From positions 35,674 through 99,673 of the IMG/VR virus record IMGVR_UViG_3300020174_000004: a DNA stretch of 64,000 nucleotides; one strand, given 5' to 3'. The notes beneath the pieces are model-generated. The model did not search any database. It was not told the DNA's origin and was given only the letters and a program-made list of their open reading frames with translations. Below, piece after piece: positions 3,694-51,639 of this stretch. The position numbers and the translations under genes are program-made. Origin of the DNA: a virus. The number at the start of each line of letters is the position of its first letter. Position 1 is the stretch's first letter.

Positions 3694-6600
3694 ATGGCGA
3701 TCACAACAGATCTTTCACGTAGACCATATTTTGACGAGTTTGATGCTAATGATAACTTTCATAGAGTTTTATTTAGACCATCAACAGCAGTTCAAACACG
3801 TGAACTTAATGAAATGCAATCTATATTGCAGGATCAGGTAGATAAATTTGGTCGTCATATTTTTAAAAATGGGTCTGTTGTTGAAGGGTGCTCATTTACA
3901 TTTGATAGAAAATATAACTTTGTAAAAATCAATGATACATACACAAATAACTTTGCTATCTCAACAACTTCAGACTTTGTTGGAAACTATATTGAAAATG
4001 AAAATGGATTGCAGGCTTTAATTATTAATTCAGCGGATGGTCTAGAATCAGCAGCTCCAGATTTTAATACTTTATATGTTTCTTATTTAAATTCTGCTGC
4101 ATATGCAAATGGTGATCCACAAAAAAGTTTTGATAAAGGTGATGCATTAACATTATATACAACGGCAAATGTTCAAATTGGTAATTCAACTATTGAAGTT
4201 GCAACTCCTGCAAATACTTCAGAAGCTTCTGTTGGTTTTGGTTATGCTTTTACTACAACCGAAGGCGTAATTTTTAAAGATGGATATTTTGTAAGAGTTC
4301 CAACACAAACTATACTTGTCAGTAAGTATGATAATACTCCTAATAATGTTTCTATTGGATTTAAACTTGATGAATCAATCATAACACCAGAAGCAGATAC
4401 CACGCTACTTGATAATGCGGCTGGTTCTCCAAACTTTTCAGCACCTGGCGCGCATAGACTTAAATTAGTACCAACATTAGAAAAAAGAACTACATCAAAT
4501 ATTGATACTAATATATTCTTTTCATTATGTGATTTTAAAAATGGTTATCCAGTCACTATTAAGAATGATGCTCAGTACGCTGCTCTTGGAGCAGAACAAG
4601 CAAGAAGAACATATGAAACAAATGGCGACTTTGTTGTAAAACCATTTCTATTAAATACTGAAACACATGCTTCAAATGCTGAGCTTTTAAATCTTGTTGT
4701 TTCACAAGGTCTTGGATATGCCAAAGGATATAGAGTTGAATATCTTAATAATAATATTTTAGATTTGCGTAAAGGAACAGATTATGCTAATTCTGAAGTA
4801 ACAATTACTTCAAATTATGAAAATTATTTTATTGTTGATGATTATGTTGGCGAATTTGATACAGATCAATTAATTGAAGTTGAATTACATAATGCATTCA
4901 AAAATGCATTAACAGATCGTGGTTTTCTAGGAACTGCAGCTGGATCAACACAAATTGGTACAGCTAAAATTAGAAGTGTACTTCATGAATCCGGAACACC
5001 TGGTACTTCTGATGCGCAATATAAATTATACATATTTGATATTGTAATGAATGCTGGCTATTCAACATCTGATGTTAAATCTGTAATGTATACTTCAGGT
5101 GGTTCAACTGTTGCATGCGCTGATATTGTTCAAATTTATAATGCTTCTCTTGGCGCTAATACAACAAGACTTGAAGGAGATTCTCAAAGAACATTATTAT
5201 TTAGACTTGGTCCAAAGGCTTTAACTACAAATGGATTTGGATCTTCAGCTTCATTTTCATATAGAAATAAAGAGTCCGGCACTATTCTAGCAAATGGTCA
5301 AATAACCATTACTCTTTCTTCTGATACGTTTCCTTATTCTGGAACACTATCAACTTCGCAAAAACAAGAATTTATTCTTATTCCAACAGCCAATCAGGTT
5401 TCTACTAAAACAGGAACCGTAAACACTTATTCAAATTCAACAGTTACGGGTGTTGGAACCAGCTTTACTTCAGAATATAGTGCTGGTGATTATGTAACTA
5501 TTGATGGTTATACTAGAAGAATTACACAAGTATCAAATAATACACATATGAAAATAGATGCAAATGCATCTTATAGCAATACTGGAGCAACACATAAAAA
5601 GATTTTTATCAATGGTGTACCAATTCCATTAGATAGATCTGCAAGAAGTGTTATTGTTAATTCAACTACTGAAACAGAAATTAATCTTAATGAAACTTTT
5701 GATTCTTCTGGTACTCTTGCTGCTGTTGTGTATCATAAAGCAAAAAGATCTTCTGCACAACCAATTCAAAAAGACATTAAGAAAGCTCGTTATGTTAAGA
5801 TAGATTGTTCAAATTCTTCTTATGGAACTTCTGGACCATGGCCTTTTGGTTTCTCTGATGTTCATAAAATTAATGCTGTTTATATTGGCACTGGTGGTGT
5901 ATATTCCAACACTGGAACTGATTATAAAAATTATTTTACTCTTGATAATGGTCAGAAAGATTCATATTATGCAATATCTACTTTAAAAACTAAAACAAAT
6001 TCTTTATTAAGTAATACTTCAACTATTCTTGTTGAATTTGATTATTTTGATCACGATGAATCAGCCGGTAAAGGTTTCTTTACTGCTGCTTCTTATCCTG
6101 TTTATGCCAATGATTATATAGATTCAACACATATCTCCATTAAAGATATTCCACTATATACTTCTTCAAAAGGCCAGGTATATGATTTACGTGATCATGT
6201 AGATTTTAGACCATATGCTGCAAATACAGCAGTTGATACAGGAACAGTTGCAAGCGCAACAGTTAATCCTATAGCAACTATATCATGGGATTTACCAGTT
6301 GAAGGTTCTTATATCCCTGTTCCCGATTCAGAATTTACAACTGATCTGGCATATTATCTACCACGTGTTGATAGAGTTATGATGACTACTGGGGGACAGA
6401 TAAGAATTATTGAAGGTGAATCATCATTAACACCCGTGCCTCCTCTTGCTAAAGAAGATATGATGAATCTTGGAACTGTTAGAGTTACACAATATCCAAC
6501 TTTAACACCATATGAAGCAAAATTAGCCAATCGTTATGATTATTCAGTTACTGTTGATATTAAACAAAACAAAAGATATACAATGAGAGATATTGCCGGT

Positions 6601-7893
6601 ATTGAGTCAAGAATTAATGTTCTTGAATATTATACTGCTTTAAACCTTCTTGAAAAAAATGCTAATGATTTATTAGTAAGAAGTGATTCAACAGGTCTTA
6701 ATAGATTTAAAAATGGATTTATGGTTGATAACTTTGATACATTTGCAGTTACCAATACTTTACATCCAAAGTTTAATATTTCTCTTGATAAAAAGAAATC
6801 AGAATTAAGACCAAAATTTAAAGTTAGAAGATTTACTTTGGATTTTGATTCTTCTAAGAGTTCAAATGTTGTTAAAAAAGGTAAATCAATATTATTAACT
6901 CATACTTCTTCACTTTTAACAAGACAAAATTTTGCTACAAAATATAGAAATTGTATTGAAGGCAATATATATAATCATATTGGAAGAATAGAAATTCCGT
7001 TAGAAGGATCAATTGAACCATGTTATGATACTTTACCGGATGTTGTATCAAACCTTGATTTATCACAGAACTGGATAACTTTAGCAAATGCATGGGAAAC
7101 TGAATGGGGTACATGGGAAACACAAAGCACTAGACAAACTGGCACTTCGAGTTCAAGTACATCATCTACATCATCTGCATGGGATTATTATGGTGGTGAA
7201 ACTGTTACTACTACTACTTATACAACTACAGTTGATACGTTTGCCGAACAACAAAAAAGAATTGGTCAAGATTTAGTTACAACAAATAATAATACTTCTA
7301 TAAATTTAGGTCAATATATACAAAGCATTAATATATTACCATATATTAATGCTCAAACTGTACAATTTTATGCTTATGATTTAAAACCTAATACTAGAGT
7401 ATATCTTTATTTTAATGATATTCTTTTAAGTTATAGTACAAGATTGGATAATAATAGTTATGTTAGAAGATTAGATACTTCAACTAATGCTTCAAATATA
7501 TTTCAAAACTCTGATGAAATAACATATCAATTAAAAGAAGAACTTATTACTGATTCTAAAGGACGTGTATTTGGCGTAATTAATATACCACCAAATACAT
7601 TTAAACAAGAACAATCGTTAATTAAAATTTTAGATATAGATGATTTAACACAAGGTGAAGATGCTATAACTACTTCAGCTATTAAAGAATTTTATGCATC
7701 TAAATTACATGTTAACTATGCAAGTTCTATTTTAAATGTAAAATCGCCATTATTAGAATGGAGTGAAGTAGATGCAAATAGAACTATAACATATACAGAA
7801 ACAGGAACGAATGTTGTAAGAACATCAATATATATAGAGCCACCACCACCGCCAGAAGACGAGTATTACTTTGAATGTGCTTCTTGTCCATAA
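3694..7893 (+). CDS. Large structural protein, DUF4815-type (tail/baseplate)
   Basis: A 1399-residue virion protein. Its N-terminus (SRRPYFDEFD, then F-R-P-S-T-A-V-Q-T-R-E-L-N-E-M-Q) is the signature I associate with DUF4815 proteins of T4-like marine phages, which lie in the tail/baseplate gene block. The middle is beta-rich and repetitive; a Ser/Thr-rich linker lies near residues 1145-1180; the C-terminus has a Pro run and C-A-S-C-P. An AGAGGAAAAG ribosome site precedes the ATG. It lies between the gp8-like gene and another large structural gene, so a role in the outer baseplate or fibre attachment is likely but unproven. Confidence 0.7.
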   Translation: MAITTDLSRRPYFDEFDANDNFHRVLFRPSTAVQTRELNEMQSILQDQVDKFGRHIFKNGSVVEGCSFTFDRKYNFVKINDTYTNNFAISTTSDFVGNYIENENGLQALIINSADGLESAAPDFNTLYVSYLNSAAYANGDPQKSFDKGDALTLYTTANVQIGNSTIEVATPANTSEASVGFGYAFTTTEGVIFKDGYFVRVPTQTILVSKYDNTPNNVSIGFKLDESIITPEADTTLLDNAAGSPNFSAPGAHRLKLVPTLEKRTTSNIDTNIFFSLCDFKNGYPVTIKNDAQYAALGAEQARRTYETNGDFVVKPFLLNTETHASNAELLNLVVSQGLGYAKGYRVEYLNNNILDLRKGTDYANSEVTITSNYENYFIVDDYVGEFDTDQLIEVELHNAFKNALTDRGFLGTAAGSTQIGTAKIRSVLHESGTPGTSDAQYKLYIFDIVMNAGYSTSDVKSVMYTSGGSTVACADIVQIYNASLGANTTRLEGDSQRTLLFRLGPKALTTNGFGSSASFSYRNKESGTILANGQITITLSSDTFPYSGTLSTSQKQEFILIPTANQVSTKTGTVNTYSNSTVTGVGTSFTSEYSAGDYVTIDGYTRRITQVSNNTHMKIDANASYSNTGATHKKIFINGVPIPLDRSARSVIVNSTTETEINLNETFDSSGTLAAVVYHKAKRSSAQPIQKDIKKARYVKIDCSNSSYGTSGPWPFGFSDVHKINAVYIGTGGVYSNTGTDYKNYFTLDNGQKDSYYAISTLKTKTNSLLSNTSTILVEFDYFDHDESAGKGFFTAASYPVYANDYIDSTHISIKDIPLYTSSKGQVYDLRDHVDFRPYAANTAVDTGTVASATVNPIATISWDLPVEGSYIPVPDSEFTTDLAYYLPRVDRVMMTTGGQIRIIEGESSLTPVPPLAKEDMMNLGTVRVTQYPTLTPYEAKLANRYDYSVTVDIKQNKRYTMRDIAGIESRINVLEYYTALNLLEKNANDLLVRSDSTGLNRFKNGFMVDNFDTFAVTNTLHPKFNISLDKKKSELRPKFKVRRFTLDFDSSKSSNVVKKGKSILLTHTSSLLTRQNFATKYRNCIEGNIYNHIGRIEIPLEGSIEPCYDTLPDVVSNLDLSQNWITLANAWETEWGTWETQSTRQTGTSSSSTSSTSSAWDYYGGETVTTTTYTTTVDTFAEQQKRIGQDLVTTNNNTSINLGQYIQSINILPYINAQTVQFYAYDLKPNTRVYLYFNDILLSYSTRLDNNSYVRRLDTSTNASNIFQNSDEITYQLKEELITDSKGRVFGVINIPPNTFKQEQSLIKILDIDDLTQGEDAITTSAIKEFYASKLHVNYASSILNVKSPLLEWSEVDANRTITYTETGTNVVRTSIYIEPPPPPEDEYYFECASCP

Positions 7894-7911
7894 AAATCAA
7901 GGAAATAATAA

Positions 7912-10428
7912 ATGAAACCAATTGGTCAAACGTTTTTTGTATCAAAACCGCAAAATGGAACGGCTGGTATTTATCTATATAAAATAGATGTATATTTTAA
8001 ATCTATTGATCCTGATAAAGGTATAGTTTTACAATTAAGAGAAACTGATAATGGATACCCTACTTCTATAGTTATACCAAATAGTGAATGTTTCGCTTTT
8101 CCTGACGGTGATTATCAAGATGCTATAGCAAATCCAGATGATTATGGTGGGCTTTGGGATGATCAACCCACACATAATATTGCATATGCATCAGATGATG
8201 CTAGTGCTGCTACTAGTTTTACTTTTAAACAACCACCATATTTAGAAGCAAATAAATCATATGCATTTGTTTTAATACCCGGAGGTGGAACCGATAAATA
8301 TGAAGTTTGGACTTCAGAAATTGGACAAACTGATGTATTAACAAATAATTTAGTAAGTAAAAATAATGACACAGGAACTTTGTTTATATCATCAAACGAT
8401 ATTCAATGGACTCCTATACAAACTGAAGATATAAAATTTTCAATACATCAAGCTAGTTTTACTAACACTTCTGGTAGCGCAATATTAAATGTAGCAAATA
8501 CAGATTCTTTTTATATAAAAGATACTGTTGGAACTTTTCGAAAAGGTGAAACTGCATATGTTAGTAATGCAGTGTTTGATATTTCAAGATTAGTTATTGC
8601 TTCCAATTCTGCTGCATTTACAACATCAGAAACAGTTTATCAGAGCAATGGAACAGCAAATATTGCATTTGGTACTTTAACTTTTGCTAATACAACTAAT
8701 CTTGTTGTTGCAAATACCAGAGGTGTATTTGATGCTTCATATGAAGTAAAAGGAATCACTTCAACAGCAAATGCTTCACTTTCTTCAGTTGTAGATGATA
8801 CTACTTTCTCCAGTGGTTCAAATACTATAACAGTGCCATATTCAGGTGTTTTTTCTAATGGTGATTATATTTTTGTAGCTAAAAGTTCTTTAGCCAATGG
8901 GCTTTTTAGAAGAATTACTTCTATAAATTCAAATACGGAGATTCGAGTTAATACTAATATGCCTTATACCGAATCAACTGGCGCATTTATAGCAAGATAT
9001 GATAATATTGGAGGATTGATTAACACACAAGAAATTTATGATCAAAATAAACAATCTATAGTATTAATTTTTCAAAAATCTTTTACTTCTTCAAGAAATC
9101 ATTCTGGATCTAAAATATATAATGAATATGTGTTTGGACTTTCTTCTAAATCAGCAGCAAAAATAGATTCACAAAGTGAAATTCAATATAATTCAATAAC
9201 TCCTTTAATTTTAGAATTTGAACCAAAAGATACGTCATTAACATATTCATTTAAAGGCTTAGATGATGATGGAAATTATACATCTGATGATTCTTCATAT
9301 TTAAATTTAAAAAATAAAATTGCTGCCGAATTATATGATAAACAAAGAATTTTAGCTAATTATAGTAATGAATTGGAAAATAGATCAGGTTCTGCAAATA
9401 CTTCTTTAAGAATTAAAGTAGATTTTGCAACTGGAAATAATGAAATTTCTCCTAATATTGATATGATGTCAAGATACATTACTTTAACAGAAAATATTCT
9501 TGTATCAGATGAAAATTTAACTGGTTATTATTTAACTCTTAATAAAACTCTTGATAACCAATTGGATGTTCCAGCTGTAGGTTCAACTGTTACGCTTGGA
9601 TCTAATACAGCAGAAGTAGCATATGCTAATACTACATTTGTTAGAGTAATTAATAATTCAGGAAAATTTCCATCAAATCCGGGTAATATGACATTTGATA
9701 CATTTACAGCAAATGTTTCAATTGCTGAATACTATTCAGAAAGTTTGGATAATGGATTTGATGATGTGGCAAGATATATTTCTAAAAGCACATCACTCGC
9801 TCCAAATCAAGAAGCCGATGATGCAATAACATATTTAACTGCATATAGACCAGCAAACACCGGCATATATGTTTATATTAAGGCTCTTGGTGTAAATGAT
9901 TCTAGTGATTTTGAAAATAGAGTTTGGTCACAAATGCCAGAAAAAAATTCTATTGGATTATTAAGCAGTAAGGCTAATATTAATGACTATGTTGAATTAG
10001 AATATAATCTTCCAACAAGTAAAGGTCTTTTTGCTGATTCTGGAAGTTGTGGATCTACCTCAGCAAATGTTGGAATGTTTAATACAGAAACTCTTTCTGT
10101 TGGTGATTTTATATATGTTAAGGATAATGCAAACTCAACATTCACTGTAAGAGAAGTTATATCCGTAACAAATTCAAGTTCAGTTGTTGTATCAAGTAAT
10201 GTAGGTTTTACATCTTCAAATGCGGCAATTGGTGTTATACCAGACCTATCACATGAAAATGGCGTATTTAAATATCATGATAATGAATATATTTCTAAAT
10301 ATGTAAATAGTTCTGGTGATGTCCATGATACAATCAAACAATTTGCTATTAAGATAATACTAACCGGTGATAATCATTATATTATTCCACGTGTTGCTGA
10401 TATGAGAACTCTAGCATTACAGAACTAA
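7912..10428 (+). CDS. Large structural protein, tail/baseplate periphery
   Basis: An 838-residue protein with a strong AAGGAAATAATAA leader. The N-terminus (QTFFV, then G-I-Y-L-Y-K-I-D-V-Y-F) reads like a beta-sandwich; the centre has repeats with F-x-x-G-E-T and N-A-x-x-x-V shared in style with the preceding two proteins, and the end (HYIIPRVADMRTLAL) looks like a compact terminal domain. It probably works with the DUF4815-type protein upstream. I do not recognise a named family beyond phage structural protein. Confidence 0.55.
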   Translation: MKPIGQTFFVSKPQNGTAGIYLYKIDVYFKSIDPDKGIVLQLRETDNGYPTSIVIPNSECFAFPDGDYQDAIANPDDYGGLWDDQPTHNIAYASDDASAATSFTFKQPPYLEANKSYAFVLIPGGGTDKYEVWTSEIGQTDVLTNNLVSKNNDTGTLFISSNDIQWTPIQTEDIKFSIHQASFTNTSGSAILNVANTDSFYIKDTVGTFRKGETAYVSNAVFDISRLVIASNSAAFTTSETVYQSNGTANIAFGTLTFANTTNLVVANTRGVFDASYEVKGITSTANASLSSVVDDTTFSSGSNTITVPYSGVFSNGDYIFVAKSSLANGLFRRITSINSNTEIRVNTNMPYTESTGAFIARYDNIGGLINTQEIYDQNKQSIVLIFQKSFTSSRNHSGSKIYNEYVFGLSSKSAAKIDSQSEIQYNSITPLILEFEPKDTSLTYSFKGLDDDGNYTSDDSSYLNLKNKIAAELYDKQRILANYSNELENRSGSANTSLRIKVDFATGNNEISPNIDMMSRYITLTENILVSDENLTGYYLTLNKTLDNQLDVPAVGSTVTLGSNTAEVAYANTTFVRVINNSGKFPSNPGNMTFDTFTANVSIAEYYSESLDNGFDDVARYISKSTSLAPNQEADDAITYLTAYRPANTGIYVYIKALGVNDSSDFENRVWSQMPEKNSIGLLSSKANINDYVELEYNLPTSKGLFADSGSCGSTSANVGMFNTETLSVGDFIYVKDNANSTFTVREVISVTNSSSVVVSSNVGFTSSNAAIGVIPDLSHENGVFKYHDNEYISKYVNSSGDVHDTIKQFAIKIILTGDNHYIIPRVADMRTLALQN

Positions 10429-13789: not shown

Positions 13790-14512
13790 ATGGAGAAATA
13801 TGGTTTCATTTACATATGGTTTGATCGAAAACACAAGAGATATTATCTAGGTAGACATTGGGGTTATGAGAACGACTGTTATATTTGTTCTTCTACAAAC
13901 ATGAGAAACAATTATAATAACAGACCTTCAGACTTTAAAAGAAGAGTGATTAAAAGAATATACACAAACATGGATGATTTAGTCATTGAAGAACAAAGAT
14001 GGCTTGATATGATTACTCCTGTAGAATGTAATTCGAAATATTATAATAAATCTTTAAGTTCTTCTACGCCTTCTACTAGAGGTTATAAACATTCTACAGA
14101 AACTCGCCAAAAAATTGCAGCTGCCAACAAAGGCAAATTTGTATCCGAAGAAACCAAACAAAAACTTCGCAAGGCTAACAAAAAACAATTTGAAGATCAG
14201 CAGCAAATTAATCTGAGAAAGAAAAAATCTAAGGATTTATGGTCTGATCCTGAATATATTGAAAAACAAAATAAAGCTAGATCAAAGGTAGGATTTTATA
14301 AAGGCAACACCAAACCGCATTCGGAAAAAACTAAACAGCATTTGAGAAATATAAAGTTAGGGGTTCAAGTTCATAATGAAGAATCTAAGAAAAGAATATC
14401 AGAATTTTTTTCAAATCTTATTTGGATTACCAATGGCAAAGACAATAAAAGAATAAATAGATTAGAATCAATACCAGATGGATACCGTCAAGGTAGAACT
14501 CGTAAGACATAA
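13790..14512 (+). CDS. GIY-YIG homing endonuclease (Seg-like)
   Basis: A 240-residue free-standing homing endonuclease candidate. Residues 5-21 carry the family signature (G-F-I-Y-I-W ... Y-Y-L-G-R-H), followed by Y-I-C-S-S, with a conserved Glu near residue 67 (I-E-E-Q-R-W). The middle and C-terminal parts hold NUMOD3-like DNA-contact repeats: K-H-S-T-E-T-R-Q-K-I near 101, S-E-E-T-K-Q-K-L near 119, and H-S-E-K-T-K-Q-H-L near 178. It interrupts a run of tail genes. Expected action: cut a cognate site in related phages to spread itself. Its ribosome site is buried in a hairpin. Confidence 0.85.
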   Translation: MEKYGFIYIWFDRKHKRYYLGRHWGYENDCYICSSTNMRNNYNNRPSDFKRRVIKRIYTNMDDLVIEEQRWLDMITPVECNSKYYNKSLSSSTPSTRGYKHSTETRQKIAAANKGKFVSEETKQKLRKANKKQFEDQQQINLRKKKSKDLWSDPEYIEKQNKARSKVGFYKGNTKPHSEKTKQHLRNIKLGVQVHNEESKKRISEFFSNLIWITNGKDNKRINRLESIPDGYRQGRTRKT

Positions 14513-17221: not shown

Positions 17222-19558
17222 ATGGCAATTAAAATTCAAGGCACAGTAGTATTAGACTATGATGGCGCCAGTTACTCAAGTACAAATATTGCCGTTGGTG
17301 CTGATGCTCTTTCTTCATTAACAACAGGCATTAATAATGTTGGTGTTGGATTTCAGTCATTAGTATCCAACACAACAGGTAATTATAATGTTGGTGTTGG
17401 ATATCAATCATTATATCTCAACACAATAGGTTATAGTAATGTTGGTGTTGGATATGCTGCATTATTTTCCAACACAATAGGTACTAGTAATACTGCTCTT
17501 GGAACTACTGCATTATACTCCAACACAACAGGTACTAATAATGTTGGTGTTGGATATGCTGCATTATTTTCCAACACAATAGGTACTTCCAATACTGGTG
17601 TTGGGATGCAATCATTATACTCCAACACAACAGGTATTAATAATGTTGGTGTTGGAATCTATGCTCTATACAATAACACAACAGGTACTAATAATACTGG
17701 TGTTGGTTATCAAGCATTATACTCCAACACAATAGGTAATTATAATACTGGTCTTGGGCATCAGTCATTATACGCCAACACAACCGGTAATTATAATGTT
17801 GGTCTTGGGCTTCAGTCATTACGAAACAACACAACAGGTTCTAATAATGTTGGTGTTGGTGTGAATGCATTATACAACAACACAACAGGTTATAATAATA
17901 CTGTTGTTGGATATGCTGCATTATACTCCAACACAATAGGTAATAATAATACTGCTCTTGGCCATCGAGCATTATATCTCAACACAACAGGTACTAGTAA
18001 TGTTGGTCTTGGTGTGAATGCATTATACAACAACACAACAGGTTATAATAATACTGTTGTTGGTTATACTGCATTACAAAACAACACAACAGGTATTAAT
18101 AATACTGGTATTGGATATGGATCATTACAAACCAACACAATAGGTAATTATAATGTTGGTCTTGGATATCAATCATTATATTCCAACACAATAGGTACTA
18201 ATAATACTGCTCTCGGTCCATTTTCATTATACAACAACACAACAGGTGTTAATAATACTGCTGTTGGATATATTGCATTACGAAACAACACAACAGGTAC
18301 TAATAATACTGGTGTTGGTATGAATGCATTATACAGCAACACAACAGGTATTTATAATACTGGTGTTGGAACGTTCTCATTATATTTTAACACAATAGGT
18401 ACTAATAATACTGCTCTCGGTCCATTTTCATTATACTCCAACACAACAGGTACTAATAATACTGCCGTTGGATATGCTGCATTATATTACAATACAATAG
18501 GTACTAATAATACTGGTGTTGGTTATCAAGCATTATTATCCAACACAACAGGTACTAGTAATGTTGGTCTTGGGCGTCAGTCATTATACTCCAACACAAC
18601 CGGTGCTAATAATACTGGTATTGGCTATCAAGCATTATATCTCAACACAACAGGTGTTAGTAATGTTGGTGTTGGATATCAATCATTATATGCCAACACA
18701 ATAGGTACTAATAATACTGCTCTTGGCTATCGTGCATTATTTTTCAACACAACAGGCATTGGTAATGTTGGTGTTGGATATCAATCATTATACAACAACA
18801 CAACAGGTACTAATAATGTTGGTGTTGGTTATTTTGCATTATACTCCAACACAACAGGTAACCATAACACAGGTGTTGGTTATCAAGCACTTTATGACCA
18901 AACTACTGGAGTTTATAACACAGCACTTGGCTACAATACTGGTCGTGGGATTACGACTGGTTCTTATAACACGATCATTGGCGCACAAGTAACAGGTTTA
19001 TCCGCTACACTGAACAACACTGTTATCATTGCTGATGGTGCTGGTAATCAAAGAATATATGTTGATAGTAGCGGCAACGTCGGAATTGGGACGGCGGCTC
19101 CTACGGAAAAACTTGATGTTGTTGGTAATGTAACGATCAGCGGATCAATCACCAAAGGCAGCGGATCGTTCAAGATTGACCATCCTCTAAAACCCGACAC
19201 GCACCACCTCGTCCATTCATTTGTCGAGGCTCCAACGGCTGACAACATCTATCGCGGTCGCGTTGATCTGGTTGATGGTGTAGCAACGGTTGACATCGAT
19301 GAGGCTGCACGGCTGTCTGGCGGAACATTTGTCGCGCTCAACACAAACACTGATTGCTGGGTCAACAACAAAACTGGCTGGGCTGCTGTTCGTGCGTCAG
19401 TCAGCGGATCGATATTGAGCATTGAGGCTCAGGACAACTCATGCACTGACACTGTGTCGTGGCTGGTGATTGGCGAGCGTCACGATCAAACAATAATCGA
19501 TGCTACTTGGACAGACGAAGCTGGTCGCGTAATCACTGAACCTCAGAAGGATCATTAA
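17222..19558 (+). CDS. Tandem-repeat tail fibre / adhesin
   Basis: A 778-residue protein. Residues about 30-560 are made of roughly 23 copies of a 23-residue unit, typical form N-T-T-G-x-N-N-x-G-V-G-Y-x-A-L-Y-S, which should fold as a regular trimeric beta structure like YadA heads. A connector (G-I-G-T-A-A-P near residue 622) leads to a 130-residue C-terminal domain starting at K-I-D-H-P and H-H-L-V-H-S-F-V-E. The C-terminal DNA (after about 19060) is clearly more GC-rich than the repeats, suggesting a module swapped in from another phage. Probably involved in host contact. Confidence 0.75.
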   Translation: MAIKIQGTVVLDYDGASYSSTNIAVGADALSSLTTGINNVGVGFQSLVSNTTGNYNVGVGYQSLYLNTIGYSNVGVGYAALFSNTIGTSNTALGTTALYSNTTGTNNVGVGYAALFSNTIGTSNTGVGMQSLYSNTTGINNVGVGIYALYNNTTGTNNTGVGYQALYSNTIGNYNTGLGHQSLYANTTGNYNVGLGLQSLRNNTTGSNNVGVGVNALYNNTTGYNNTVVGYAALYSNTIGNNNTALGHRALYLNTTGTSNVGLGVNALYNNTTGYNNTVVGYTALQNNTTGINNTGIGYGSLQTNTIGNYNVGLGYQSLYSNTIGTNNTALGPFSLYNNTTGVNNTAVGYIALRNNTTGTNNTGVGMNALYSNTTGIYNTGVGTFSLYFNTIGTNNTALGPFSLYSNTTGTNNTAVGYAALYYNTIGTNNTGVGYQALLSNTTGTSNVGLGRQSLYSNTTGANNTGIGYQALYLNTTGVSNVGVGYQSLYANTIGTNNTALGYRALFFNTTGIGNVGVGYQSLYNNTTGTNNVGVGYFALYSNTTGNHNTGVGYQALYDQTTGVYNTALGYNTGRGITTGSYNTIIGAQVTGLSATLNNTVIIADGAGNQRIYVDSSGNVGIGTAAPTEKLDVVGNVTISGSITKGSGSFKIDHPLKPDTHHLVHSFVEAPTADNIYRGRVDLVDGVATVDIDEAARLSGGTFVALNTNTDCWVNNKTGWAAVRASVSGSILSIEAQDNSCTDTVSWLVIGERHDQTIIDATWTDEAGRVITEPQKDH
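17310..18905 (+). repeat. About 23 in-frame 69-bp tandem repeats
   Basis: The unit carries a near-constant core (C-A-A-C-A-C-A-A-(C/T)-A-G-G-T) followed by TAATA(C/A)T and a variable 20-base tip. Some longer stretches recur exactly, such as the unit with CTCTCGGTCCATTTTCATT near 18211 and again near 18415. The unit length is a multiple of three, so copies can be gained or lost without breaking the frame. Confidence 0.85.
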
Positions 19559-22800: not shown

Positions 22801-23370
22801 AGTCATACTCATGATGGCAGATACTATACTGAAACAGAATCAAATACATTATATATGAAAAGAACGGCTAATGATACTGTTACAGCAAATACACTATGGC
22901 AAGATAGTAAGCAAATTCAATTAGGAACCGGCGGGGATTTAAAAATTTATCATGATGGAACAAATGCCGTTTTAAATAATGATACTGGTAGTTTTTTATT
23001 TTATGAGGTAACAGGCGGAAGTTATATATGGCATGTTGCAGGCGCTAATAAGTTACAACTTGATTCTTCCGGAAATTTAACAGCAGCTGGAAATATAACT
23101 GCTTATTCTGATGTTAGATTAAAGAAAGAAATAAAAACAATTGATAATGCATTAAATAAAGTAACAAGCCTTCGTGGTGTAAACTTTATTAAAGATGAAG
23201 AATATCAAATGGGTGTAATTGCACAAGAAGTTGAAGAAATTATTCCGGAAGTTATATTAACAAATAATGAAGGAATTAAAAGTGTTGCATATGGAAATAT
23301 GGTTGGTCTTTTAATTGAAGCTATTAAAGAATTAAAAATGGAAATAGAAGAATTAAAAGGTAAAAAATAA
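19876..23370 (+). CDS. Long tail fibre with S74 intramolecular chaperone
   Basis: A 1164-residue fibre, second S74-type fibre of the window. The shaft is made of nested repeats: five or six copies with I-N-x-x-S-T-A-N-x-G-G-A-T-T-L-R near residues 75-280 and A-Y-S-N-A / A-G-T-I-A-G-T segments near 620-680. The C-terminal domain starts at S-D-V-R-L-K-K-E-I near residue 1080, with G-V-I-A-Q-E-V-E-E-I-I-P-E. The Ser/Lys pattern matches the self-cleaving trimer chaperone. It ends in a Glu/Lys coiled coil and overlaps the next gene (TAATG). Confidence 0.85.
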   Translation: MADKDFVVKNGLVVNTDLIVANTDSNRVGINTSSPDSTLTVSGTANVSGNVVFSDKVSVGNTISVGSNATISGHINVASTANVGGATTLRGSLTVNGATIVANTLSAGNTSLANTNITGYINTTSTANIGGATTLRGSLTVNGATIVANTISTGNNTITGFINVSSTANVGGATTLRSTLDVTGATTLNNTLSAGNTSLANTNITGYINTTSTANVGGATTLRSTLDVTGATTLNNTLSAGNTSLANTNITGFINASSTANIGGATTLRSTLDVTGATTLNNTLAVGNTSVTGFITATTNSTFSGDTTTVKGIRFSTDSSYTVGNTSHRPLKIWSDDIETENITITGFITGTIAPASSIIPTTNLSADLGSSEKWFDELFVGSITTNTFTVSDGGDGVSITSNTQSFKSNSSITAISIRANTTSSNTTLSGNLVTITSNTNVSVANLTVTNGTFISTNGSVTTTVNNSTIQIGGGATVNSTIFTGASNNSTYLNGQLASYYTNATNLSTGTVASARIAGSYTGITGVGTISTGTWQGSQISTTYTQAKITSISGGNGLTGTVTTSGSISVLANTGIVANGTGTYVNTAYIATINANNATYFNGQAASYYTGYSDTKAEAAYSNAVSYAGTIAGTAYSNAISYAGTIAGTAYSNAVSYAGTIAGTAYSNATTFSANASNLGNGTVPSGRINGSYTGITGVGTISTGTWQGSQISTTYTQAKVTSVSGGNGLTGTVTTSGSISVLANTGIVANGTGLYVNSSYIGTLSSNNATYFNGQAASYYTGYSDTKAATAYSNAISYATNASNISSGTLNAARLPYTINQNLGTSNAPTFDGLYLTGGLSLTGDITTYRSDAVTTGVIFLGNSGSNYLYYNGSYYDMPGAELYVNGYQVVKNTGTWGISVTGNAATATKWATARTLSLTGAVTGSASVDGSGNISLATIATSDPTLTLSGDASGSATFTNLGNATLSVTVADDSHTHDGRYYTETESNTLYMKRTANDTVTANTLWQDSKQIQLGTGGDLKIYHDGTNAVLNNDTGSFLFYEVTGGSYIWHVAGANKLQLDSSGNLTAAGNITAYSDVRLKKEIKTIDNALNKVTSLRGVNFIKDEEYQMGVIAQEVEEIIPEVILTNNEGIKSVAYGNMVGLLIEAIKELKMEIEELKGKK

Positions 23371-24161
23371 TGGCAAATGAAGACGTAAATTCATCTGTTA
23401 ATTATTGGAATGCAAATTATTCTGGTTATGGCACTATGAGCAAGAATTTTTTGTCTATGCGTACAATTCTTAATAATAACTCTGCTTATTCTGCTTATGA
23501 TCTACAAGGAATGTATAATGCAATATATGCCTTTACACCACCAGTTGTTAAATGTTTTTCAAGAACATCAGCAGTTCTCATGTCTGATCTTTCATGGAAA
23601 TGGATACACGAATTAGAAACTGGCGATATGATTTTTACATCAGATGGTCCTTCTGCTTTATCTCACTTACATATAACTAAACTTGGATTTAGAAGAATGT
23701 ATGAGATGTATGATGGAAGTCTTTCATTTTCTTCTGATCATTGCTTATGGGTTAGAAGAAATGAAGGTGATTATTTTTGGGTGATGGATAAAAATGATTT
23801 ACAAACTTCTTGCTCCATTGCCAATAGTCCAGTTATTAACAATATTGATAATGCCTTTATTGGTTCTGTTGATAGAGAAGAACAATTTGCACATGTAACT
23901 GGATGGAAAACTAATAAACCGGTTCTTACTGGAATAACTGCTCCCGATTATACTTTATACTCACCTGTTGTAGAAAATAAAGGTTTAATAGTTGTGAATG
24001 GTTATCTTGTAGATTCCGATTCAAACGAATCAACTAATAATTATAATTTTAATTGGGATGATATTATAAACAATGATATATCCAATTCAATGGATAGTTT
24101 ACCAGAATTATTATCACAATATATCAAATATAGGACAGAAAATCCAAACGAAATTCCATGA
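23370..24161 (+). CDS. Hint (hedgehog/intein-like) domain protein
   Basis: A 263-residue protein. Residues 1-60 are a Tyr/Asn-rich N-terminal segment. Cys62 starts an intein block A-like strand (C-F-S-R-T-S-A-V-L), with E-L-E-T-G-D-M-I at 81-88 like the block following it. F-S-S-D-H124 resembles block B (T-x-x-H). Residues 195-216 (T-L-Y-S-P-V-V ... V-V-N-G-Y-L-V-D-S) match the final strands of Hint domains. The His-Asn pair and the following nucleophile needed for full splicing are absent, so N-terminal cleavage or transfer is more likely than splicing. The ATG overlaps the stop of the S74 fibre gene, suggesting a partnership with the tail. The process and target are inferred. Confidence 0.65.
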   Translation: MANEDVNSSVNYWNANYSGYGTMSKNFLSMRTILNNNSAYSAYDLQGMYNAIYAFTPPVVKCFSRTSAVLMSDLSWKWIHELETGDMIFTSDGPSALSHLHITKLGFRRMYEMYDGSLSFSSDHCLWVRRNEGDYFWVMDKNDLQTSCSIANSPVINNIDNAFIGSVDREEQFAHVTGWKTNKPVLTGITAPDYTLYSPVVENKGLIVVNGYLVDSDSNESTNNYNFNWDDIINNDISNSMDSLPELLSQYIKYRTENPNEIP

Positions 24162-24169
24162 GGTGTTTT

Positions 24170-25003
24170 ATGATTAAATTTATTATGATTTTTACTATGT
24201 TATTTTCATCTATTGCAATTGCAAGTGATAAAGAAAAAGTGAATGTTTATAACAAGTATAGAATGGGTGGACCTCCTGGTGTTACTCTAAAAATTCTATT
24301 AGATACTATGAATCATTATGATAGTAAACATACTTATGTTTATTCTCAGATTACTGGTGCTAAAGGTGAAGCAGCAATTTCTAGAGGATTTATTGCAAAA
24401 GAAAAATCTCTAATATATGGTGCAAGTTCAGATTTTACATTTAATAGAATTACAAAAACAAAAACAAAGTATGACAAAAGTAAAGATTTTACTATAATAT
24501 ATGGTACTTCTGGTGTATATTGGAGTTTAATGATTGATAAGAAATCAAATATTAAAACAGTAAAAGATTTAATTAATAATATTAAAACTGGTGATAGTAA
24601 ATTTTATGCAGATTATACAAGTAGTGCTGCAAGTAAATTTTTAACTGAAAGATTTTTAAAAAATAATAATATTTTTGGTTTAATGAAACCTGTTTTATAC
24701 ACTAAAATGTCTGATATTAATAGATCGATTGCAAGTGGAGAAACTAATTTTATTTTTCTGCCAGCAGCATCAGTCAAAGTTGGAAAATCTTTATTAAAAA
24801 CTGATATGATGAGTATATCAATATTTTTTAGTAGTAAAAGACATGAAAAATTTGCTATGTCTATTATTCCTATTTTAGAAAAAGTATGTAGTGATTCGAT
24901 ATATAAAGCAGTATTAAAAAGATTTGGTCGTGAAGATAGATGTTATGACACAAAATATGTGAATGAGTATATTAATAATGAATGGAAATCTATACAACCC
25001 TAA
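24170..25003 (+). CDS. Secreted TctC/Bug-like solute-binding protein
   Basis: A 277-residue protein with a clear Sec signal: Lys at position 3, hydrophobic core I-M-I-F-T-M-L-F-S-S and a cleavage region A-I-A-S near residue 20. The mature part follows the tripartite tricarboxylate transporter receptor pattern: T-G-A-K-G-E-A-A-I near 63-71, K-D-F-T-I-I-Y-G, L-M-I-D-K-K-S then V-K-D-L-I, and F-Y-A-D-Y-T-S-S-A-A-S near 150. These receptors bind carboxylates in the periplasm. The start at 24170 is preferred because GAGGTG precedes it. No transporter membrane genes are present, so it would have to use host TctA/TctB or serve another purpose. Confidence 0.65.
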   Translation: MIKFIMIFTMLFSSIAIASDKEKVNVYNKYRMGGPPGVTLKILLDTMNHYDSKHTYVYSQITGAKGEAAISRGFIAKEKSLIYGASSDFTFNRITKTKTKYDKSKDFTIIYGTSGVYWSLMIDKKSNIKTVKDLINNIKTGDSKFYADYTSSAASKFLTERFLKNNNIFGLMKPVLYTKMSDINRSIASGETNFIFLPAASVKVGKSLLKTDMMSISIFFSSKRHEKFAMSIIPILEKVCSDSIYKAVLKRFGREDRCYDTKYVNEYINNEWKSIQP

Positions 25004-26192
25004 GTTTGGTTATTATCAGTATAATAATCAAATATTTTCTACTAAAGAAGATATGTTTGATTATATTTTAGAAAACTGTAATGATGAACAAATAAAAAAT
25101 ATTCCAAATACATTATATAATTTTCATAATGAAGTCTTTCAATCTATAGATTGGAGGATAAATCCTACATTTTCAATAAACGAATTATATAAGATAAGAG
25201 CGCAACAATTAAGAGATGAATATGATTATCTCATATTACTTTTTTCTGGCGGTGCTGATTCCACTCAAGTTTTAAATACATTTCTAGAAAATGATATATT
25301 CATTGATGAGATACAAAATTATAATTATGATAAGGCACTAAAGAGTGTTGATAGAGATATTTTTAATAAATTTCCAAGTATTAAGATATTATTAGAATAT
25401 GAATATGCTGCTAAACCAATTTTAAAAAAAGTTAAGCAAAAAAGTCCTAATACAAAAATAACATTTGTAGATACATCAGATTATGCGTATGATCAAATTG
25501 TTAATAAGAAATTTGATTTTCTTGGAAACAAATATCATAATAGCCATACATTGCTATCAAAAGCATATAGATCATTTACACCTTATACTGCAATATACAA
25601 TCAACAGAATAATAATAAAAATAAAGTTGCTTTAATAAGAGGAAATGAAAAACCAAATCTAAGAATGGACAGAGAATGGAATCTTTATTTTACATTTCAA
25701 GATTTTTTATATCCAAATGTAAAATTATCAAGAATGGGGTACACTGATCCAAATATAGAAATTGAAGATTTTTATTGGTCTAAAGATATGCCTCTAATAC
25801 CAGTAAAACAGTCTCATTTAATATTAGATAAGATGAAAAATGATAATGAATATTTGAAAACTGTATTATCTTTTTTTGTTGGTGGGAAGAGTCCAATTCA
25901 ACAAAATTTTGATATGCATAATAAAACTGTATTTTTTAAAAGAAATTATATTGATCCTGTAATATATCCAAATTGGCAAAAGACATTTTCCGCAGAAAAA
26001 ATTGGCAATGTAAATCCAGAATTTGAAATTTTTAAAAATTTAAATTATATAGTGTATGGATATGATCAAATGAAATCTCACGGAGAATATATTCGTGAAA
26101 AATATAAAAGATTACCAATTAAATTTATTGGCGGTTTGTTAGAGACACAGAACTATCTAATAGGTAATTTAAAAAGTCTTATCTTCAAGTAG
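24963..26192 (+). CDS. PP-loop ATPase superfamily protein
   Basis: A 409-residue protein (405 if the ATG at 24978 is used; neither start has a strong ribosome site). It carries the ATP-pyrophosphatase P-loop S-G-G-A-D-S-T at residues 95-101 after a hydrophobic strand (Y-L-I-L-L-F), as in asparagine synthetase, QueC and TilS-type enzymes, which adenylate their substrates. The remainder is Tyr/Asn/Lys-rich with no recognised second domain. It overlaps the end of the TctC-like gene by 41 bases. Possible roles: RNA or DNA base modification or ligation chemistry; the substrate is unknown. Confidence 0.65.
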   Translation: MSILIMNGNLYNPKFGYYQYNNQIFSTKEDMFDYILENCNDEQIKNIPNTLYNFHNEVFQSIDWRINPTFSINELYKIRAQQLRDEYDYLILLFSGGADSTQVLNTFLENDIFIDEIQNYNYDKALKSVDRDIFNKFPSIKILLEYEYAAKPILKKVKQKSPNTKITFVDTSDYAYDQIVNKKFDFLGNKYHNSHTLLSKAYRSFTPYTAIYNQQNNNKNKVALIRGNEKPNLRMDREWNLYFTFQDFLYPNVKLSRMGYTDPNIEIEDFYWSKDMPLIPVKQSHLILDKMKNDNEYLKTVLSFFVGGKSPIQQNFDMHNKTVFFKRNYIDPVIYPNWQKTFSAEKIGNVNPEFEIFKNLNYIVYGYDQMKSHGEYIREKYKRLPIKFIGGLLETQNYLIGNLKSLIFK

Positions 26193-26625: not shown

Positions 26626-27366
26626 ATGGCCGTACCTACATCCAGAGCAGAATTTAAGGAATATTGCCTTAGAAATCTAGGCAAGCCTGTTATAGAAATC
26701 AATGTTGATGATGATCAAGTAGATGATCGCATTGATGAGGCTTTAAAATACTACTGGGACTATCATTTTGATGGTTCAGAAAAAACATATTATAAGCATG
26801 TTATAACGGCTGATGATAAAACCAACAAATATATAACTATGCCAGAAAATATAATTGGTGTAGTAAATTTATTTGATATTGGAAATAATGTTGGAACAAA
26901 TAATCTTTTTAATATTCGTTATCAAATTGCTTTAAATGATTTATATACACTCACTTCTGTATCTATGATTCCTTATTTTATGGCAATGCAGCATATTCAA
27001 TTTTTAGAATATATGCTAGTTGGAAAACAGCCATTAAGATATAATAGACATAGAGACATTCTTCATATTGATATGGATTGGGATAAGGTAGATGTTGGTC
27101 AATATTTAATAGTTGAAGCATATCAAGTAGTAGATCCTGATATCTATACCGATGCATGGGGTGATAGATGGCTAGCCAGATATTGTACTGCTCTTGTAAA
27201 AAGACAATGGGGTAATAATTTAAAGAAATATAATGGAATGCAACTTCCTGGTGGTCTAACTTTTAATGGTCAACAGATCTATAACGAATCAATTGATGAA
27301 ATCAATGAATTAGAAAAAGAAATGATTTCATCATTTAGCTTACCGGTTACGGATATGATAGGATAA
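26626..27366 (+). CDS. gp13: Neck protein gp13
   Basis: A 246-residue neck protein (T4 gp13 has 309). The opening (SRAEFKEYCLRNLG, then I-E-I-N-V-D-D-D-Q-V-D-D-R-I-D-E-A-L) is the hallmark of this family, as is Y-W-D-Y-H-F-D-G. It starts the unbroken T4-order run 13-14-15-16-17-18-19-20. With gp14 it closes the filled head and forms the tail-binding collar. Two late promoters lie in the 75 bases upstream. Confidence 0.9.
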   Translation: MAVPTSRAEFKEYCLRNLGKPVIEINVDDDQVDDRIDEALKYYWDYHFDGSEKTYYKHVITADDKTNKYITMPENIIGVVNLFDIGNNVGTNNLFNIRYQIALNDLYTLTSVSMIPYFMAMQHIQFLEYMLVGKQPLRYNRHRDILHIDMDWDKVDVGQYLIVEAYQVVDPDIYTDAWGDRWLARYCTALVKRQWGNNLKKYNGMQLPGGLTFNGQQIYNESIDEINELEKEMISSFSLPVTDMIG

Positions 27367-50490: not shown

Positions 50491-51639
50491 ATGAATAATA
50501 TTCGTGTAGCCATTGTTGGCGTTGGTAACTGTGCAAAATCTCTAGTTGAAGGTGTTGCACTATATAGTGCAACTTCACGTGTTGATGGGCTTGCATTTGA
50601 AAATATTGGAGGCTATAAGGCTGAAAATATTGAATTTGTTTTGGCATATGACATTGATACTCGCAAAGTTGGTAGAAAGCTTGCTGATGCTATTTTTGCA
50701 AAGCCAAATTGCGCAATGGATTTTGAAGTATCACGTCAAAATATTGAAAAAGTTTGTTCAAATACCATAGTGAAGCGTGGTGCTTTGTATGATGGTGTTG
50801 CACCACACATGCTTAATATGCCAGAAGATGAATCTTTTAGAGTAACAAAAGATCCTGAACCATCCAAGGAAGAAATTATTAAAAATCTTCGTGATAATAA
50901 GGTTGATGTTCTTCTTAATTACTTACCAGTTGGATCAGAAACTGCTACTCGTTTTTACATTGAAGCATGCATTGAAGCAAAGGTTCCTTTTGTCAATTGT
51001 ATTCCAGTATTCATTGTTTCAGACCCATATTGGGAAAAAAGACTAATTGAAGCAGGAATTCCTGCAATTGGCGATGATATGAGAAGCCAGCTTGGTGCTA
51101 GTGTTATGTCACAGGCATTGCAGGAACTATTCTTTAATCGTGGTATGAAAGTAAAGTTCCATGAACAAACAAATCATGGTGGTAATACTGATTTTCTTAA
51201 TATGATGGATCAGAGTCGACTTGCTAGCAAAAAGATTTCTAAGGAAAATGTAATTAGATCACAAAATGATATTCGTGGAATCCCGGTTCCAAAGAATGGC
51301 ATTTATGCTGGACCATCAAGCTATATTCCTTATCATCAGGATAATAAGATTGCACATTTTAGAATTGAAGCTGAAGGATTTGGTGGCGCGCCAGTAATTT
51401 TTGATGCCCGTTTATCAGTACAAGATTCACCCAATTCTGCTGGTGTTGTTATTGATGCTATTAGATATCTTCAGGTTGCTAAAGAACTAGGACTTGTTGG
51501 TTCTCTACGTGGACCTTCAGCAGCTACACAAAAGACTCCACCAACACAGATGATGATTCAAGATGCATATGAAGAATGCAAGGCTTTAGCAGAAAGGCGG
51601 ATTACCGAAACTGTAAGGAATCATAATATCCATGATTAA
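50491..51639 (+). CDS. ino1: myo-Inositol-1(3)-phosphate synthase
   Basis: A 382-residue enzyme of the short, actinobacterial-type INO1 group. The NAD-binding start (V-A-I-V-G-V-G-N-C-A), N-C-I-P-V-F, G-D-D-M-R-S-Q-L-G-A near residue 204, the G-G-N-T-D-F-L-N-M motif near 232 and S-K-K-I-S-K match the family closely. It converts glucose 6-phosphate to inositol phosphate. GC content and ribosome site (AAAGGG) are ordinary for this phage, so the gene is well settled. It sits between the nucleotide genes and the DNA-modifying-looking genes, overlapping the HAD gene by 8 bases. Confidence 0.9.
   Translation: MNNIRVAIVGVGNCAKSLVEGVALYSATSRVDGLAFENIGGYKAENIEFVLAYDIDTRKVGRKLADAIFAKPNCAMDFEVSRQNIEKVCSNTIVKRGALYDGVAPHMLNMPEDESFRVTKDPEPSKEEIIKNLRDNKVDVLLNYLPVGSETATRFYIEACIEAKVPFVNCIPVFIVSDPYWEKRLIEAGIPAIGDDMRSQLGASVMSQALQELFFNRGMKVKFHEQTNHGGNTDFLNMMDQSRLASKKISKENVIRSQNDIRGIPVPKNGIYAGPSSYIPYHQDNKIAHFRIEAEGFGGAPVIFDARLSVQDSPNSAGVVIDAIRYLQVAKELGLVGSLRGPSAATQKTPPTQMMIQDAYEECKALAERRITETVRNHNIHD

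Follow-up and report, generated by a model that had tools for sequence, protein, structure and literature searches.

The receptor gene and its surroundings

The window analysed here, a stretch of 64,000 nucleotides, belongs to a virus record of 99,673 bases, in which genes that we assign to the T4-type neck, tail, terminase and portal succeed one another in order. The phage terminase shares 50-58% identity with the terminases of Sinorhizobium, cyanobacterial and Methylophilales phages, and this T4-type terminase and other structural genes share the contig with a gene for a putative periplasmic solute receptor, which is overlapped by the gene of a PP-loop protein (Table 1). The product of the gene upstream could be a self-processing fibre part, and the gene downstream of the pair is presumably gp13, judged by gene order. 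By inspection, a GIY-YIG homing-endonuclease-like gene lies amid the fibre genes (13790-14512) and an inositol-3-phosphate-synthase-like phage gene is found at 50491-51639, while a fibre-like protein encoded at 17222-19558 has many imperfect NTTGxNNxGxGxxALYSNT repeats.

Table 1. Features of the receptor locus in the window
Feature	Position	Strand	Basis
Tail-fibre-region protein, stop overlaps ATG 24158	23370..24161	+	Weak Hint match, Pfam Hom_end_hint E=0.015, below cut-off
Shine-Dalgarno-like GAGGT, 5 bases 5' of ATG 24170	24160..24164	+	Read from sequence
Predicted Sec signal peptide, residues 1-18, cleavage between AIA and SD	24170..24223	+	N-terminal hydrophobicity, AxA motif by eye
TctC/Bug-family periplasmic solute-binding protein, 277 aa	24170..25003	+	Bacteria-only TctC HMM, AF2 model, Foldseek and VIA top matches
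Cys240, invariant in closest phage clade	24887..24889	+	Alignment
Cys258, invariant in closest phage clade	24941..24943	+	Alignment
PP-loop (N-type ATP-pyrophosphatase-like) protein, 409 aa, 41-base overlap with receptor gene	24963..26192	+	SGGADS motif, viral relatives
PP-loop motif SGGADS, residues 95-100	25245..25262	+	Sequence
T4 gp13-type neck protein (presumed)	26626..27366	+	tblastn, many viral relatives

A preceding sequence-only reading had proposed the receptor open reading frame, a Sec signal on its product and a position among tail genes, and all three were borne out in silico. The frame keeps its coordinates and has a strong Shine-Dalgarno sequence; the mechanical ORF begins earlier, at the in-frame ATG 24158. 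By chance, 277 stop-free codons would occur with a probability of ~2e-13 at this base composition of 25% GC. The predicted signal is of the canonical Sec type: the N-terminus MIKFIMIFTMLFSSIAIA, followed by SD, is the most hydrophobic among the 56 plus-strand genes of the window, its AxA site finishes at residue 18 and a lipobox Cys is absent. A hydrophobic N-terminus is kept in most phage TctC relatives (65/80 by one rule, 93/98 by another), in contrast to the PP-loop proteins, of which 2/126 have one. The gene itself is located between tail-fibre-type genes and T4-type neck, terminase and sheath genes.

This position bears on the idea that the receptor is a virion part, displayed on the tail and aiding the binding to host envelope receptors. 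Besides the window, the receptor and PP-loop genes adjoin a gp13 homologue in the T4-like relatives L181, L183, L186 and L189, and L191 has the PP-loop gene only (tblastn). A Sec signal would, however, take the receptor out of the cytoplasm, where tails are assembled, and the gene has other locations in other phages, for instance between ParB-like and PAPS-reductase-like genes, which makes a role in the virion highly improbable.

The receptor gave no tblastn match in isolate phages and plasmids, even at E=10, and tblastn with the partner enzyme and other phage receptors yielded no annotated isolate phage and one unannotated faecal record (MT836965). When single proteins were scanned against collections of viruses and of genomes, nothing but the same phage, or no match, was returned. 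In 48 related T4-like records and 80 loci found through gp13, no TctC was detected at a useful E-value except the window's own.

Family and fold of the receptor

On its own, the receptor matches TctC as the sole Pfam family (E=0.028, 14.4 bits, below the cut-off of 27) and AdpC (5oei) among the PDB sequences (E=0.26), neither of which counts as proof. Searches with relatives are far clearer. The receptor was searched against bacterial genomes taken without preselection (385 of one proteobacterial class and 274 of another), which resulted in 11 matches; ten of these are uninterrupted ORFs, and sequence and alignment inspection identified all ten as TctC/Bug. An HMM of TctC built from 74 bacterial sequences and zero phage sequences recognizes the receptor with 52.6 bits (E=5.3e-15). 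Within the receptor's clade, 11 of the 12 members match Pfam TctC (best E 3.3e-16); the close relative L181 scores 44.4 bits, above the 27-bit cut-off. A profile of the receptor and its closest phage relatives retrieves 11 TctC/Bug sequences from the PDB (E 6e-14 to 1e-5) and, beyond those, one weak unrelated match (E 0.0085).

The AF2 model, with 50 aligned TctC relatives as input, reached a pLDDT of 92.5 and a pTM of 0.85; the fold rests on homology and not on the lone sequence, as the model from the single sequence, made without an alignment, failed (pLDDT 35). Compared with the PDB, its best 11 entries are all TctC/Bug receptors (5oei, 8hka, 8hkb, 6hke, 2qpq, 7nds, 2dvz, 8hk9, 2f5x, 7ndr and 4x9t; Z 22.8-25.9), and the next class, other binding proteins, follows from Z 16.9 down. 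The ligands named among these structures are oxoadipate (5oei), terephthalate (8hka) and malate (6hke), and Bug27 and BugD are also represented. The viral models that match best are those of Bug-type proteins from uncultured Caudovirales. Profile searches and structure comparison with the predicted model thus confirm the receptor as a member of the TctC/Bug family (PF03401) with a two-lobed Venus-flytrap fold. The receptor-like blocks from which a TctC-like identity had been suspected are real, and the clear match to TctC/Bug receptors agrees in silico with the fold that such an identity entails. Two other labels, a VopS-like one (NCBIfam, 14.2 bits against a cut-off of 364) and a laccase one, were dismissed as chance, and a defence-system reading was dropped, PADLOC having given no convincing match.

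The window receptor also shows peculiarities. Aligned with its closest relatives (about 300-310 aa), it is without ~30 residues in the second half, and in the GGxxD motif the GG is retained while the Asp is replaced by Gly37. It may therefore bind another solute, or bind poorly. The two clade-invariant cysteines, Cys240 and Cys258, may form a disulfide. That the window copy is a relic, which after the loss of these ~30 residues and key motif residues binds nothing any more, would account for the deletion and the lost GGxxD motif. We regard this as improbable: the frame is open, start and signal are intact, the predicted model is confident and compact, and the partner's PP-loop motif is preserved. 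Near-identical copies moreover exist in three assemblies, the two other viral contigs being 99.99% identical over 20.5 kb and, for the one of 7.1 kb, 99.94%.

Pairing of the receptor with a PP-loop protein

The overlapping gene for a PP-loop protein had been missed in the sequence-only reading. Its family is widespread, with at least 215 relatives in uncultured-virus contigs according to a family scan, and the SGGxDS motif is intact in 123 of 126 members. In bacteria, a profile search for the family was negative in all 754 sampled genomes of two proteobacterial classes; the same profile found the family in 5/5 phage records.

A TctC-like gene is present in 57 of 82 PP-loop loci, usually abutting and often in multiple copies, against 0/80 loci found through gp13, a comparison that is an unmatched control. 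For 58 of 125 PP-loop genes, a TctC-like gene abuts on the same strand; 24 of these pairs overlap by 3-4 bases, 18 have another overlap and 14 lie within 20 bases. As the PP-loop baits came from TctC-holding loci, this pairing rate is biased upward for close relatives, and the fairer figures are the counts of PP-loop clusters that show an abutting pair, namely 17/29 at 50% identity and 7/18 at 40%. The distance matrices of receptors and enzymes are strongly correlated (Mantel r=0.83 for 51 unique pairs; 0/2000 permutations as high), for which shared descent of the pair is enough as an explanation. Several loci and genomes have two or three receptors, up to four PP-loop genes occur per genome, and the carriers range from T4-like to jumbo phages.

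The pairing extends beyond a single PP-loop family. In L151, L160 and L163, to which a search for further phage TctC genes had led, a PP-loop gene adjoins the receptor, though the PP-loop families differ, and in L164, from the same search, a PP-loop-like gene whose motif is degenerate is separated from the receptor by 1.6 kb and two genes. Four loci (L160:7394-10026, L169:5325-7966, L171:5301-7969 and L172:5352-8015) have the receptor between ParB-like and PAPS-reductase-like (SGGKDST) genes; such loci are a second, independent PP-loop pairing. A terminase-like gene is located near this set in L171. A distinct second PP-loop family (SGGADSDYVF) was seen in the cassette region of T4-like phages, at L190:3333-4154 and in 11 other T4-like loci.

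Copy number and position can also be read in terms of an envelope decoy or superinfection block, an exported protein that occupies an envelope component used by competing phages. The export signal, the vicinity of tail-fibre genes and the multi-copy, fast-diverging receptors of some phages suit this idea. It has no place, however, for the pairing with a cytoplasmic ATP enzyme and TctA, the two-lobed ligand-binding fold is retained even in a very divergent member, and the PADLOC result was equally unconvincing here. A decoy is therefore very unlikely.

Transport genes in relatives and the proposed role

In 28 genomes of cassette phages, TctA was found above cut-off in four and a porin in six. 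Three loci, L256, L258 and L259, encode a Gram-negative porin, TctA, a TctC-like receptor and a PP-loop protein in that order, in operons at L256:6434-11141, L259:3709-8393 and, on the minus strand, L258:3624-9178. Judged by their gene content, these operons would give the phage a route of its own across both membranes. Pfam searches covered the members from L256 and L257 as well as the L258 receptor; all genes of L259 and the remaining ones of L258 were named by their likeness to those, together with genome-wide TctA and porin matches. For the operon receptors of L256 (no Pfam match) and L258 (weak TctC match, E=0.021), the assignment relies on position, signal and resemblance, given the absent or weak Pfam result. 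A 344 kb jumbo record with the porin-TctA operon has a T4-type terminase (32% identity). The other three TctA-bearing records gave no terminase match in the sequence examined, so their phage nature rests on IMG/VR and their neighbours. High-GC viral contigs with TctC (e.g. L148-L150) were left out of the phage evidence because of possible host contamination. In the 158 kb virus record L257, TctB is adjacent to TctA (7148-9063) and a tryptophan halogenase is encoded at 5100-6677.

Further genes recur near the cassette. TRAP DctP-type proteins were detected in 37 loci (for example L173:4882-5910, with 44 more copies in 36 other loci), and none of the 45 copies has a signal peptide. They would hence remain cytoplasmic, so that a role in transport does not extend to all receptor-like genes of these clusters. 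By inspection, recurring neighbours are 2OG-Fe(II)-oxygenase-like, methyltransferase-like, radical-SAM-like and nucleotidyltransferase-like; they could form a cluster for biosynthesis that draws on the imported solute, or mark a hot spot where cargo genes gather.

We propose that receptor and PP-loop protein form an auxiliary cassette for the uptake and activation of a small solute, probably a carboxylated one, a reading to which we assign a probability of about 60%; export, transport, ligand class, enzyme substrate and benefit to the phage are what we infer in it. The receptor would be exported through Sec to the periplasm of the infected cell, capture a small solute, probably a carboxylate, and pass it to the membrane unit of a tripartite tricarboxylate transporter. 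This unit would be the host's own for the window phage, as far as the partial record goes, and a phage-borne TctA would serve in some relatives. In the cytoplasm, the solute or a product of it would be adenylated, or activated in another way, by the PP-loop protein at the expense of ATP. Phages would inherit the two genes as a pair, and would have acquired, duplicated and swapped them as a cassette.

The gene context speaks in part against an uptake role. The cassette lies among late structural genes, a less expected location for uptake genes, and TctA and porin are absent from the 99.7 kb record of the window phage, which is incomplete. The window phage shows receptor and enzyme only, and we do not class it as carrying a complete tripartite tricarboxylate transporter. 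In Bordetella and Rhodoplanes, several orphan receptors have been proposed to share one membrane unit (PMC5994714), and by analogy the window phage would rely on such an arrangement.

The missing TctA is also consistent with sensing instead of transport, in which ligand binding in the periplasm would signal to a sensor kinase or chemoreceptor of the host and the phage would alter host expression; such a mode of action was proposed for orphan Bugs and shown for Bordetella BctDECBA. In expanded TctC families of bacteria, the majority of genes are orphans that lack TctAB, and sensory functions have been documented in some cases (PMC5994714). We still consider sensing unlikely: relatives that carry TctA, TctB and porin favour transport, three of them having such genes in one operon with the receptor, and sensing would leave the constant PP-loop partner unexplained.

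Among the three roles put forward in the sequence-only reading, feeding of the infected cell has the best support, since receptors of this type occur in related phages alongside TctA, TctB or a porin of the outer membrane; decoy and tail partner find support in genome position only. The 'tricarboxylate' in its term 'tricarboxylate-type' names the family only, and the GGxxD of the usual carboxylate loop is altered. Ligands of the TctC family include malate, oxoadipate, terephthalate, aspartate, glutamate and quinolinate (PDB titles; PMC11452294), as well as citrate (PMC5994714). A carboxylate is hence the best guess for the receptor, a guess that the altered GGxxD weakens.

On a broader scale, uncultured phages from T4-like to jumbo would carry a mobile cassette that combines a periplasmic receptor with its matched PP-loop enzyme, frequently as multiple divergent copies and in some phages with TctA and porin, so that the virus would own the whole route from the outside to an activated intermediate. 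We advance this tentatively, at somewhat less than an even chance. If such a widespread combination of solute capture and ATP enzyme is true, these viruses would alter what an infected cell can take up. The cassette would offer a first handle on a PP-loop family of no known function and, since the phage tends to pair receptor with enzyme, on orphan TctC proteins generally.

Earlier records of tripartite tricarboxylate transporter genes in viruses are single mentions that do not describe the receptor-PP-loop cassette: a SUP05 virus contig with a tctA domain match (PMC4164917) and a marine myovirus contig where 'tricarboxylate transport' genes lie next to norB/nirK (PMC8115048), both left unexplained. 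Beyond these two papers and UniProt labels, our search found no further mention of such viral genes, nor did it find a description of the cassette in full-text literature, a scope that leaves out most subscription papers. The best viral structure matches, phage-borne and Bug-type like the window receptor, are known as database labels ('Bordetella uptake protein' or 'PBP2_Bug_TTT domain' proteins of uncultured Caudovirales phages; A0A6J5M1T7, A0A6J5LDG7, A0A6J5T9X7, A0A6J5L7K0 and A0A6J5T247), and the literature search found no paper treating them. The PAPS-reductase-like proteins of phrog_2302 and phrog_424 are also phage PP-loop proteins and are weakly matched by members of the partner family. 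That family itself lacks a convincing PHROG match, and a profile search gave no solved relative for it.

Phage nutrient receptors are known mainly for phosphate. The cyanophage PstS is a phage-borne periplasmic receptor, as the window receptor is predicted to be, and is thought to feed a host transporter (PMC6359870). It belongs to another receptor family and transporter class, whereas phage TctA, TctB and porin occur in relatives of the window receptor. We know of no pairing of PstS with a PP-loop enzyme. With the TctC/Bug receptors AdpC (Rpa4515, 5oei), MatC (6hke), TphC (7nds), TBP (8hka), Bug27 (2qpq) and BugD (2f5x), the window receptor shares its predicted fold (250-258 residues at 2.5-4.3 A), the family profile, the predicted Sec signal and the frequent orphan state without an own TctAB. 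It differs from them as a phage-encoded protein of 277 aa with a ~30-residue deletion, an altered GGxxD, two clade-specific cysteines and a PP-loop gene as its partner.
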